From Methylotenera oryzisoli (lineage in GTDB: Bacteria > Pseudomonadota > Gammaproteobacteria > Burkholderiales > Methylophilaceae): a DNA stretch of 64,000 nt. How positions within the stretch are numbered: the first letter of the stretch is position 1; every line of letters starts with the position of its first letter. The DNA is taken from NCBI GenBank assembly GCA_945881735.1, contig CAMCVF010000010.1, positions 1 through 64,000 of the forward strand, written 5' to 3'. Made by a program: the position numbers and the translations under genes. A model generated the notes under the pieces. The model did not search any database, was not told the DNA's origin, and was given only the letters and a program-made list of their open reading frames with translations. Shown in pieces: positions 3,323-10,183 of the stretch.

Positions 3323-3910
3323 TTATAAGCTACCTTTAGTAGACGGCATAATGCCAGCCATGCGATCATCAAATGTCACGGCCATACGTAAGGCGCGCCC
3401 AAAAGCTTTAAATATGGTTTCACATTGATGATGCGAATTATGGCCCTTTAGATTATCGATATGCAAGGTGACATTGGCGTGATTGACGAATCCTTGAAAA
3501 AATTCATGCACCAAATCGACGTCAAAATCGCCTATTGCCGCTCGGGTAAATTCACAATCAAACTCTAACCCTGGTCGGCCCGATAAATCGAGCACAACTC
3601 GACTCAAAGCTTCATCCAAAGGCACATAGGCATGACCATAACGGTTAATACCTTTTTTATCACCAACTGCTTTTGCAAACGCTTGGCCTAGCGTAATGCC
3701 AATATCTTCAACGGTGTGATGTGCATCAATATGCAAATCACCTTTGGCTTGTACATTTAAATCAAACAGACCATGACGCGCAATTTGATCAAGCATATGA
3801 TCTAAAAATCCAATGCCTGTATTAAATTGTGCCGTGCCGTTGCCATCTATATTAATAGAGACAGTAATTTGAGTTTCTAAGGTGTTACGTGTAACTTCTG
3901 CTAGGCGCAT
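3323..3910 (-). CDS. hisB: Imidazoleglycerol-phosphate dehydratase
   Basis: This is the 195-residue monofunctional HisB, without the phosphatase domain found in enterics. It dehydrates imidazole glycerol phosphate. The metal-binding His-rich motifs [11 protein letters not shown] and [10 protein letters not shown] are both present. It is the first gene after the hps terminator, so hisB and the genes below it probably need their own promoter in the 3911-4044 gap, or readthrough from upstream. Confidence 0.96.
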
Positions 3911-4043: not shown

Positions 4044-4074
4044 AAAAAAAGCCGAGTATTAAGTCGGCTTTTTT
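4044..4074 (-). terminator. Strong intrinsic terminator after hps (hairpin works on both strands)
   Basis: The stem pairs GCCGA at 4051-4055 with TCGGC at 4064-4068, extended by six A:T pairs (4045-4050 with 4069-4074), around an 8-nt loop. The A and T runs on both sides mean it can act in either direction. It lies 38 nt beyond the hps stop codon and isolates hps from hisB. Confidence 0.85.
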
Positions 4075-4112
4075 ATAACAGTAATCAAACAAAATTAGTT
4101 TGTAGTGCCTGT

Positions 4113-4997
4113 TTATTCTTTAGCTGTAGGAGCGGCATCAGCTGCGGGAGCGGACTCAACTGGAGCAGCCTCAATTGGCGCCACTTCTTCTGGCGCAGCT
4201 TCCATTGGTGTTTCAGCGGCTGGCATTGCTTCTTCTACTGCTGGTGTTTCAGCTGGCTTTTCTTCAGCTGGTTTGTTACCAGTTAACAAATATAAACCTA
4301 ATAAAACAGCCCCTGCGATAAGTGCCCATGGTAAGTATTTACCCATGCCACCAGCTGACGCTGAGTTAGCACGTGCTAAACCGGTGATTTCAGCGGCTGA
4401 AGCGGCTGGATCGGCCGCGCCATAAATCGCAGCACCTGCAACCACAATGTCTGCACCTGCATCTACCACTTGACGTACTGTTGCCGCTTTTACGCCACCA
4501 GCTACAGAAACTTTAGCGCCAGTATTTAAACCAGTGATTAAAGCTAAATCCGCAAAAGGTGTTTGACCTGCTGCTTGTTGATCTAAACCAGTATGAACGC
4601 CAATAATGTGAGCGCCTAATTTAGCTACTTCTAAAGTACGTGCCTTTTTGTCAGCAACGTTAATCAAGTCGACTTGTGCCATTTTTCCGTATTTGTTAGC
4701 AACGTCGATTACGCCTTTAATAGTACCAATATCTGCAGTACCTAAAACGGTACAAATATCAGCACCGGCTTTGTAGAAAGGCTCAGCTTCGTAGAAGCCA
4801 GCGTCCATGGTTTTCAGATCAACTAAGATTTTGTTGTTTGGGAATTTAGCACGCAATGTTTTTAATAATTCAATACCGTTGTGCTTAATGCAAGGTGTGC
4901 CTATTTCTAAAATATCTACGTGTGGTGCTACTTTAGTTGCTAACGCAACTGTTGCATCAAAATCTAGTGAATCTAATGCCATTTGGGTTTGTGCCAT
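4113..4997 (-). CDS. hps: 3-hexulose-6-phosphate synthase with C-terminal membrane anchor and acidic tail
   Basis: HPS joins formaldehyde to ribulose 5-phosphate, the entry reaction of the ribulose monophosphate pathway. Residues 1-210 are a complete OMPDC-like barrel starting MAQTQMALDSLDF. The DxKxxD motif is Asp60, Lys62 and Asp65 (LVDLKTMDAG), and phosphate loops are at VAGGVK and VAGAAIYG. The family normally ends near residue 210. Here there is a linker, a transmembrane-like helix at about 221-239 (PWALIAGAVLLGLYLL), then about 55 residues made almost only of Ala, Pro and Glu. The frame is clean and a terminator follows directly, so the tail looks genuine. GGAGG at 5008-5012 supports the start. 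The gene splits the his cluster between hisC and hisB. Confidence 0.95.
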   Translation of the reverse strand: MAQTQMALDSLDFDATVALATKVAPHVDILEIGTPCIKHNGIELLKTLRAKFPNNKILVDLKTMDAGFYEAEPFYKAGADICTVLGTADIGTIKGVIDVANKYGKMAQVDLINVADKKARTLEVAKLGAHIIGVHTGLDQQAAGQTPFADLALITGLNTGAKVSVAGGVKAATVRQVVDAGADIVVAGAAIYGAADPAASAAEITGLARANSASAGGMGKYLPWALIAGAVLLGLYLLTGNKPAEEKPAETPAVEEAMPAAETPMEAAPEEVAPIEAAPVESAPAADAAPTAKE

Positions 4998-5063
4998 GGT
5001 GCCTATTCCTCCGAGCTCGCTAATAATTTAATAAAAGTGTTCGATTAAAATTATTTGATTAAA

Positions 5064-5235: not shown

Positions 5236-6303
5236 CTAAACTGATTTTAGAATCACATTGATTGCTTGAATTAGACTACTTGACTGGTTATCGGTACCGA
5301 TTGTGATGCGAATATAAGGTGAAATACGCGCTGGCTTTTTAAAATGGCGAACGATAATACTATGCTCACGCAGTTTTACCACCAATTCTTCACCATCTAT
5401 TTTTTTGTGTTTGGCAAATATGAAGTTAGCTCCTGATGGCAGAACTTCAAAGCTTAGTGCATGTAACTCATTAACCAAAGTATCTCTTGTTGAAATAACT
5501 TTAGCGCAAGTTTCTTCAAAATAGCCACTGTCTTGCATGGCAGCAACCGCGCCCGCCTCAGCAAAGCGATCAATTGGATACGAGTTAAAACTATCTTTAA
5601 CGCGCATTAAAGCTTCGATTAAATCCTTATTTCCCAACGCATAACCTACCCGTAGGCCTGCCAAAGATCGTGCTTTGGACAAACTATGTGTCACTAGCAG
5701 ATTAGGATAAGTATTAATCAAGTTAACCGCAGATTCAGTACCAAAATCCACATAAGCCTCATCAATTACCACTACAGAGTGCGTATTTTGGCGTAGCAAT
5801 TGCTCTATTTTTGCAAGCGCTAGCGGAATGCCCGTAGGCGCATTTGGATTTGGGAAAATAATACCGCCATTTGGACGCGCATAATGGTGAATATCAATAT
5901 TAAATTGCTTATCTAACGCGATAGTTTCATATTGAATACCATATAACCCGCAATAAACAGGGTAGAAACTGTAGGTAATATCGGGGAATAGCAATGGTTT
6001 ATCATGCTTTAATAAACCTTGAAAAACATGCGCCAGCACTTCATCTGACCCGTTACCGACAAACACTTGATTAGATTGCAAATCAAAAATTCGTGCGATT
6101 ACCGACTTTAATCTATCTGAATTTGGGTCTGGGTAAAGTCTTAAACTGTCGGCAGCTTCAGCCTTTAGGGCTTCAATCACCTTGAGGCTTGGCCCATAAG
6201 GATTTTCATTGGTGTTTAACTTAACCAAGTTGGTTAACTTGGGTTGCTCACCTGGCACATAGGGGGTTAATCTATGTACAACATCGCTCCAATACTTACT
6301 CAT
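5236..6303 (-). CDS. hisC: Histidinol-phosphate aminotransferase
   Basis: HisC is a PLP-dependent class I/II aminotransferase that converts imidazole acetol phosphate to histidinol phosphate. At 355 residues the length is normal. The PLP lysine is Lys210 in [16 protein letters not shown]. The cofactor-ring aspartate is in VIDEAYVDF, and NPNAPTG contains the usual Asn. It follows hisD by 11 nt. The operon then breaks at the hps promoter region. Confidence 0.97.
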
Positions 6304-7657: not shown

Positions 7658-8299
7658 TTAATTTTTAATTGCAGAAGCAAAACTATCAATAATTGGCTGT
7701 AATTGCGCGCGATTTAGTTTAAGCGATGCCTGATTAACCACTAAACGTGAGCTGATGTCGCCTACAAACTCTACTGCTTTGAGGTTATTGGCGCGCAAAG
7801 TTCCGCCAGTGCTCACTAAATCTACAATTACATCGGCTAAACCCACCAATGGGCCTAGCTCCATTGAGCCGTAAAGCTTGATTAAATCGACATGCATGCC
7901 TTTTGCCGCAAAGTGCTCACGCGCCGTTTTAACGTATTTTGTCACCACTTTAAGCCTTGCACCTTGGCGAATACTGGCTTCATAGTCAAAATCGTTGCGC
8001 ACGGCCACCATCATTTTACATTTGGCAATTTGCAAATCCAGCGGCTGATACAAACCTTCACCACCATGCTCTTCTAAGACATCCTTGCCCGCAATGCCTA
8101 AATCCGCCGCACCATATTGCACATAAGTTGGTACATCGGTAGCGCGCACAATGATGAGTCTTACATCATCTCTATTAGTGCCAATTATCAATTTGCGCGA
8201 TGATTCAGGGTCTTCTAATGCATGAATACCCGCCGCCGCCAATAATCGGACAGTTTCTTCAAAAATTCGGCCTTTAGATAGTGCTATTGTAATCATCAT
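7658..8299 (-). CDS. hisG: ATP phosphoribosyltransferase, short form
   Basis: HisG starts histidine synthesis by joining ATP and PRPP. At 213 residues it is the short form, which lacks the regulatory ACT-like domain and in known cases needs HisZ as partner. No hisZ is in this window, so it must be elsewhere. The N-terminus [13 protein letters not shown] and the PRPP loop [14 protein letters not shown] are intact. It is the first his gene, 32 nt after murA. Confidence 0.96.
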
Positions 8300-8331
8300 T
8301 TTTTCTTATAATTATTGGTTAAAACTATTAA

Positions 8332-9600
<1,269 letters not shown>

Positions 9601-9912
9601 TTAAACCGTTTCAGCTAACAAAGCTTGCAACTCACCACTTTCATACATCGCGCGCATAATGTCTGAACCGCCTAAAAATTCACCGTTTACATACAACTGC
9701 GGAATGGTTGGCCAATTGGCGTATTGCTTAATGCCTTCGCGAATGGCTTGATCCTGTAAAACATCTACCGCTAAATAGGGCGTGTTACAGGCGTCTAAAA
9801 TTTGCGTAGCCATATTCGAAAAACCACATTGTGGAAATTTTGGACTACCTTTCATGTACAACACAACTTTATTGCTGGTTAACGTTTGTTTAATTTGCGC
9901 TTGCGTATCCAT
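9601..9912 (-). CDS. grxD: Monothiol glutaredoxin, Grx4 type
   Basis: This is a 103-residue monothiol glutaredoxin with the CGFS active site (Cys29, in FPQCGFSNMA). It also has the glutathione-binding WPTIPQLYVNGEFLGGSDI segment. The family carries or delivers [2Fe-2S] clusters together with BolA-type partners. The neighbouring ibaG gene is such a partner, which supports an iron-sulfur role. Confidence 0.95.
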   Translation of the reverse strand: MDTQAQIKQTLTSNKVVLYMKGSPKFPQCGFSNMATQILDACNTPYLAVDVLQDQAIREGIKQYANWPTIPQLYVNGEFLGGSDIMRAMYESGELQALLAETV

Positions 9913-9934
9913 TCACTTCTCCATGCTTTTAATA

Positions 9935-10183
9935 TTAACTATTTGAGACCGCGGCCCATGCCGTTGGCGTGTATGTTTTCATTGATAAAGCGTGTATTTC
10001 GGCGCGCATGCGGTCACCCAATGCGGCGTAAACTAATTGATGTTGTTGTATCATACGCTTGCCTTCAAAAGCAGGACTGACAATCACTGCCTCAAAGTGA
10101 GTGCCATCATCACCTAACACTTTGATGTAATCGCAATCTAGATTTTGCGTGATATAACTTTCTAACTGCGTTGCGCTTAACAA
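9935..10183 (-). CDS. ibaG: BolA-family protein, IbaG type
   Basis: This 82-residue BolA-family protein has the signature HFEAVIVSPAFEGKRMIQQHQLVYAALG, given here in overlapping parts: HFEAVIVSPAFEGK and then QQHQLVYAALG. The conserved C-terminal histidine (EIHALSMKTY) is a cluster ligand in BolA-glutaredoxin complexes. Its position beside grxD and murA matches ibaG (yrbA) rather than bolA itself. It is probably a Grx4 partner in Fe-S or acid-stress physiology. Confidence 0.88.
   Translation of the reverse strand: MLSATQLESYITQNLDCDYIKVLGDDGTHFEAVIVSPAFEGKRMIQQHQLVYAALGDRMRAEIHALSMKTYTPTAWAAVSNS

Follow-up and report, generated by a model that had tools for sequence, protein, structure and literature searches.

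3-Hexulose-6-phosphate synthase (HPS) is known as a soluble enzyme, and it has long been asked how methylotrophs handle formaldehyde that arises in the periplasm while its fixation is cytoplasmic. The HPS of Methylococcus capsulatus was reportedly described as membrane-associated in a 1974 study, which we take as a lead only. Tail-anchored (bitopic, with a C-terminal helix) inner-membrane proteins are a known class, and the C-terminal end of MinD is a recognised kind of membrane-targeting sequence. That a genome may hold two HPS genes is already known: in a set of new strains, as in related species, there are two HPS that are ~90% identical within a genome, one in a histidine cluster and the other in an H4MPT cluster linked to HPI and transaldolase, and the accessible section on the two HPS makes no mention of tails (PMC4109929, PLoS One 2014). 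In the accessible part of another study hps appears among the well-known methylotrophy genes, with high expression (PMC3728764, PeerJ 2013). The accessible portions of PMC8879981, PMC517821, PMC11978286, and PMC7241084 describe no membrane tail on HPS, and we found no description of such a tail, or of a C-terminal difference between the copies, in the accessible literature, whose scope excludes most subscription journals.

The window analysed here is a stretch of 64,000 nucleotides from Methylotenera oryzisoli (contig CAMCVF010000010.1, positions 1 to 64,000). In it an hps gene lies between hisC and hisB, all three on the same strand, with the following features:

3323-3910, minus strand: hisB, the downstream neighbour (NF002106, 370 bits, cut-off 283)
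4044-4075, no strand assigned: terminator-like hairpin between hps and hisB, flanked on both sides by A/T runs (read directly)
4113-4997, minus strand: HPS with a predicted C-terminal membrane segment and an acidic tail, 294 aa plus stop (TIGR03128, PF00215)
4116-4280, minus strand: acidic disordered Ala/Pro/Glu tail, residues 240-294 (composition, AlphaFold2 disorder, dN/dS)
4281-4337, minus strand: predicted transmembrane helix, residues 221-239 (hydropathy, AlphaFold2, dN/dS)
4338-4373, minus strand: flexible linker of 12 residues, 209-220 (RANSASAGGMGK; AlphaFold2 pLDDT <50 at 212-218)
4374-4997, minus strand: HPS (beta/alpha)8 barrel, residues 1-208 (TIGR03128, 3ajx alignment, AlphaFold2)
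5008-5012, minus strand: Shine-Dalgarno-like GGAGG, 10 nt ahead of the hps start codon (read directly)
5236-6303, minus strand: hisC, the upstream neighbour (TIGR01141, 301 bits, cut-off 277)

The hps gene starts with ATG and runs as a single open frame. The gap upstream of it is 238 nt long and, together with the GGAGG and the hairpin at 4044-4075, would fit a separate hps transcription unit. A consensus scan speaks neither for nor against such a unit: it returned four promoter-like sites against 3.6 in shuffles and four terminator-like sites against 1.5 in shuffles, all four of the latter within the hps gene and the hairpin at 4044-4075 unlisted.

A profile search matched TIGR03128 (RuMP_HxlA) to residues 5-205 of the window protein with 246.4 bits (cut-off 200), PF00215 covers residues 5-204, and the best solved relative, 3ajx, aligned over residues 4-205. 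AlphaFold2 gave the barrel block means that were mostly 76-97 in pLDDT, with one block at 64. E31-P35 and D60-D65 are invariant in 23 aligned sequences, and the EIGTP and DxKTMD segments of the window protein, which presumably have an active-site role, align with ELGTP and DMKTMD of 3ajx. The likeness to 3-hexulose-6-phosphate synthase (TIGR03128; 3ajx) takes in the entire catalytic barrel, including the EIGTP and DLKTMD segments, and we infer that the gene would encode a catalytically ordinary HPS. Whereas 3ajx (207 aa) and the methanotroph HPS examined stop shortly past the barrel, the window HPS adds a linker, a putative membrane helix, and an acidic tail; at 294 aa it does not match the ~210 residues that are usual, and not defining, for a stand-alone HPS. 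The same genome carries a paralogous HPS (G000 C3), adjoining HPI and transaldolase, the barrel of which is ~88% identical to that of the window HPS but which, unlike it, stops at residue 210 without a tail.

A reading of this DNA made from the sequence only had proposed an HPS barrel, a linker, a 19-residue hydrophobic segment (221-239), and a tail of about 55 residues of Ala, Pro, and Glu, and this anatomy was borne out by the TIGR03128 match, by AlphaFold2, and by composition. Hydropathy alone is a moderate signal in the window protein, because the best 19-residue Kyte-Doolittle window (beginning at 222) scores 1.84 and the maximum inside the barrel is 1.52. AlphaFold2 with 23 aligned sequences predicted a helix at 222-238 (block means pLDDT 78) followed by residues 241-294 with nearly all pLDDT values <50, and the 55 residues of the tail (240-294) include 17 Ala, 10 Pro, and 12 Glu, with a net charge of about -10. 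G217, K220, L222, P223, and L238 are invariant in 36 sequences and W224 is kept in 34 of the 36. Across 69 close pairs from 36 sequences, dN/dS was lowest in the barrel (0.021), followed by the helix (0.108), the linker (0.161), and the tail (0.199), which makes the tail the least constrained region and indicates that the helix is under purifying selection.

The window genome and its relatives yielded 62 distinct tails in which a hydrophobic segment is combined with a net negative remainder; the hydropathy cut-off for these was 1.4, applied outside the barrel only (at 1.9 many helical tails score plain). Beyond their best hydrophobic window these tails run on for 29-110 residues (median 52), with 43% Ala, 17% Glu, and 13% Pro and a net charge of -3 to -21. 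Named carriers of this transmembrane tail include Methylophilus methylotrophus DSM 46235 (= ATCC 53528), M. rhizosphaerae, M. aquaticus, and Methylotenera versatilis 7; M. methylotrophus has long been used in industry. Six of the long tails (L011, L014, L015, L094, L111, and L124) end in a recurring (L/V)VGAAK(D/E)ATGxAx, an end peptide far more specific than the Ala/Pro/Glu run.

No N-terminal signal peptide was seen on direct reading, made with no predictor, MAQTQMALDSLD running into the first barrel strand (residues 3-8), and Pfam returned past the barrel only a sub-cut-off match of Extensin_1 to the Ala/Pro tail (E 0.12). A secretion or sorting signal was ruled out on these two grounds, no signal peptide and no Pfam match above cut-off past the barrel. 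A GlyGly-CTERM sorting signal comprises a signal peptide plus a helix and a basic cluster at the extreme C-terminus; this candidate was rejected as well, the window protein showing no signal peptide and an acidic 55-residue tail after its helix. What the window HPS shares with tail-anchored inner-membrane proteins is a cytoplasmic-type domain, a single helix of ~19 residues near the C-terminus, and no signal peptide seen; it differs from them in the long acidic Ala/Pro/Glu tail (29-110 residues) beyond the helix. The positive-inside comparison was a draw (mean K+R 1.61 before the helix and 1.56 after), and the topology that we infer, barrel in and tail out, therefore rests on HPS being cytoplasmic.

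Elsewhere in the window genome a predicted 63-aa lipoprotein (MTRSALLAALLALALTACGEKPAEEAPAAEAAP...; L194:1383-1574, G000 C1, ~230882-231073) has an Ala/Pro/Glu tail much like that of HPS, and a small ORF similar to it occurs in G030 (L185) and perhaps G017. The look-alike tail suggests that Ala/Pro/Glu tails sit outside the cytoplasm in Methylophilaceae. For a possible origin of the HPS tail from this small lipoprotein the match is weak (E 0.135), and the search returned some match at E up to 1 in 74 of 150 genomes, mostly low-complexity-like.

Many other genera of the family carry a second type of HPS tail, ending in GG[LVF][FL]GW[LIV]K[KGRNS]L[FL][SG] (e.g., GGLFGWLKKLFS), and at the his locus this amphipathic form has nothing beyond its short helix. 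A DNA pattern for this end had a single hit in each of 26 genomes out of 60, always at the end of HPS, and the reversed control pattern had none; variants such as those of G005, G006, G008, G021, and G023 escape the pattern. Plotted as helical wheels, seven cores show cleanly separated faces: their large hydrophobic residues occupy a single arc of ~160 degrees (from 300 to 100 degrees), and G, K, K (or G), and S lie on the other side. The hydrophobic moment of single cores reached no better than about p 0.05 against shuffles, some variants giving up to 0.65 where linker residues were included, and AlphaFold2 placed a helix at 217-225 with low confidence (block means 45-49). MinD scored over the cut-off in one of the six genomes searched (G021), where it ends in KPGLLKRLFGGK. 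The amphipathic HPS end of the relatives (GLFGWLKKLFG) resembles this MinD end (GLLKRLFGG) in being short, basic, and C-terminal, but HPS lacks the ATP switch and has an unrelated fold, and the likeness may be convergent. The MinD-like tail is a feature of relatives; the window HPS carries the transmembrane type instead.

Beyond the family, a class-wide search found HPS at E 1e-20 or better in 6 of 369 genomes, the window's own included, and the other five had no match beyond query residue 209. In the order that holds G512, a genome whose triple HPS repeat and fused HPS-PHI suggest Methylococcus, HPS was found in 56 of 81 genomes. The 31 HPS from the best 30 loci there had no tails and ended within ~25 residues of the last strand, with longer open frames in some further matches; the fused HPS-PHI forms of that order are a different kind of extension. 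A plasmid collection gave 188 matched records, none with 80% query coverage. Both kinds of tail have so far been seen only in Methylophilaceae, within the genomes searched.

In the family the tails follow the locus. In a larger set, with HPS matches read at ≥55% identity, his loci held 95 transmembrane and 42 amphipathic HPS, one that was cut, and none that was plain; HPI loci held 52 plain, one cut, and none tailed; and HPS with no readable neighbour comprised five amphipathic and one cut. These counts are redundant and not blind, as open-frame length played a part in picking the loci and the helix or tail supplied two of the six search peptides, and for this reason we ran a test in which loci were chosen by neighbour, reading HPS matches at ≥50% identity. 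HisB was sought in 33 family genomes and matched in 32, and 30 loci were read among the matches listed. HPS stood in the flank of 21 of these, with a membrane-type tail in 21 of 21: six were transmembrane, 14 were GW-type amphipathic by pattern, and one was a GF variant in G006 (ending in GGLFGFIKKLFS), which the pattern script scored plain and which we counted as amphipathic. The HPI loci of the same 33 genomes (30 among the matches listed) held 35 HPS, none of them tailed. The membrane-type tail is thus strictly tied to the his locus in the loci read. A divergent HPS in g6, 64-68% identical to the window barrel, obeys the same rule, its his copy ending in GGLFGWIKKLLG or similar and its HPI copy being plain. 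At several HPI loci of g12, g19, and g6 (L061, L063, L073, L155, L156, and L159) a second, divergent HPS, ~66-68% identical to the window barrel, stands in tandem with the usual one.

The nine HisB loci that had no HPS in the flank belong to g3 (two), g24, g9, g12 (two), g19, and g14 (two). In g3 (two genomes), g24, and g9 an amphipathic HPS sits on another contig; in g14 one HPS was found per genome, which was plain; and in g12 and g19 two HPS were read per genome, all plain, of 3, 3, and 4 matches, so that a tailed copy may lie elsewhere. Among the 24 family genera sampled, the amphipathic form occurs in 17, the transmembrane form in five (g1, g7, g10, g20, and g22, with g7 and g22 carrying both), and neither tail in four (g12, g14, g16, and g19), among the copies read. 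Among 13 genomes of these last four genera that were searched with HisB, 11 have hisC within ~165 nt of hisB and no HPS match between them; in one of the remaining two the gap is 740 nt, and in the other the locus sits at a contig end. At L286 (G080) the hisC-hisB gap is ~740 nt, with no HPS match in between.

In G021 a transmembrane and an amphipathic HPS stand in tandem. Their barrels match at 629 of 630 nt, in a tract that runs from ~20 nt ahead of the start codon to codon 210, while the spacers or flanks and the tails differ. The pattern resembles gene conversion that took in the barrel and left the tails distinct. The tandem pair with alike barrels (629/630 nt) and unlike tails, seen at L130 (Methylophilaceae bacterium P-RSF-NP-02) and L052 (G021 C4), makes a natural tail-swap pair. 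In a tree of the barrels (120 rows, with 19 dropped because they were short, cut, or unmatched) the copies from the his and HPI loci are intermingled, a pattern that conversion between paralogs would produce; we relied on a tree of HisB and HisC. This was built by a quick method, with SH-aLRT support only, from 121 loci with both genes readable, seven repeat loci having been excluded beforehand (92 rows after de-duplication). One group of 72 rows (SH-aLRT 99) takes in all 62 transmembrane rows; its other 10 rows are amphipathic, nine being Methylotenera mobilis-like and the tenth from g8, and G021 is placed outside the group. Tail type needs four changes on this tree, and shuffled tails need 25.9 on average. 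If an ancestor had the two copies in tandem and one was later lost, the mixed tail distribution would be accounted for. L123, which has a run of X, was left out of the second alignment (23 sequences).

Membrane tethering, though still a prediction, is well supported by sequence: there are two unlike membrane-type tails, a tie to one locus, and purifying selection. We consider it likely that the his locus encodes an HPS isoform attached to the membrane on its cytoplasmic face and that the copy beside HPI is a soluble isoform. The barrel of the attached isoform would lie in the cytoplasm, with its C-terminus on the inner membrane, and would convert formaldehyde and ribulose 5-phosphate to hexulose 6-phosphate. 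Attachment would be the common trait of his-locus HPS, most genera achieving it with a MinD-like amphipathic helix and the window lineage with a bitopic helix and an acidic tail. Attachment may concentrate HPS in a membrane-bound assembly, or split HPS capacity into membrane and soluble pools, rather than exploit a formaldehyde gradient. As for the acidic tail, it could be a by-product of insertion or could serve as a spacer or in interactions, and its low constraint fits the first two of these best. An assembly of this sort has an engineered parallel in a methanol dehydrogenase-HPS-PHI complex in which HPS was included to raise flux; in its accessible description that assembly is man-made through an SH3-ligand pair, whereas the HPS tail here is natural and of membrane type (PMC7241084).

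Membrane attachment could also be read as regulatory or quaternary, the tail sorting near-identical subunits, or the membrane storing, recruiting, or turning over HPS, with mixed oligomers drawn to it. Because the isoform barrels are so alike (~88% identical in the window genome, and 84-89% for HPI-locus copies aligned to the window protein), soluble and tailed subunits could mix, and the near-identical tandem barrels with distinct tails are in keeping with such a role, which we regard as a possible if less probable account.

The sequence-only reading had gone further and suggested that the tethered enzyme might sit near the periplasmic methanol or methylamine dehydrogenases, to catch the formaldehyde that they release, with the tail as a possible periplasmic spacer or docking arm. 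While its tethering stands as set out above, this nearness fared poorly. A helix followed by an acidic tail is compatible with a C-out topology, and the predicted small lipoprotein with the look-alike tail would be outside the cytoplasm; but the amphipathic form ends at its helix, so that an arm in the periplasm cannot be the function that both forms share, and the tail is the region under least constraint. A diffusion estimate, for which orders of magnitude were assumed for the diffusion, the enzyme amount, and the kcat/Km, gave a formaldehyde depletion length of 1-100 um, so that by this rough estimate proximity alone would gain little, the length being as long as the cell or longer. The one PQQ alcohol-dehydrogenase-type protein found in the window genome (92.7% complete) has a computed pI of 6.4-6.8, which left electrostatic docking of the acidic tail to a basic methanol dehydrogenase unsupported. 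That protein scored 393 against TIGR03075 (cut-off 480) and is perhaps not the main methanol dehydrogenase, which, given this score and the completeness, may be missing from the assembly; it is 593 aa long (L244; G000 C2, ~8290-10080) and has a Cys soon after a hydrophobic N-terminus (ILQACAANQ). We judge capture facing the periplasm to be unlikely. With the arm excluded as the common function and the gain from proximity doubtful, an assembly or a division of pools is favoured.

A soluble HPS whose tail is carried along neutrally or cleaved away would suit the wide variation in length after the helix (29-110 residues), but it seems very improbable beside two unlike membrane-type tails at the his locus and none at the HPI locus, a helix dN/dS of 0.108, and five invariant residues in and just before the helix. 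A sequencing or assembly artefact, in the form of a frameshift past the normal stop, was ruled out for practical purposes, as the tail recurs in frame and with its motifs across many independent genomes and in isolates, including Methylophilus methylotrophus ATCC 53528.

Returning to the membrane-attached isoform, one could extend it to a speculative picture, to which we give little credence, in which Methylophilaceae would split the entry step of RuMP in space: a dedicated membrane HPS, in an assembly taking formaldehyde directly from C1 oxidation, would stand apart from a soluble HPS-HPI pair, with anchors exchanged (MinD-like or bitopic) and barrels kept alike by gene conversion. The tailed isoform is easily overlooked because the two barrels are nearly 90% identical. 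Its native tails would offer a means of bringing HPS to membranes in synthetic methylotrophs. A membrane-attached isoform would make the question of formaldehyde between periplasm and cytoplasm testable, and our findings suggest that part of a supposedly soluble formaldehyde-fixing pathway may sit on the cell membrane.
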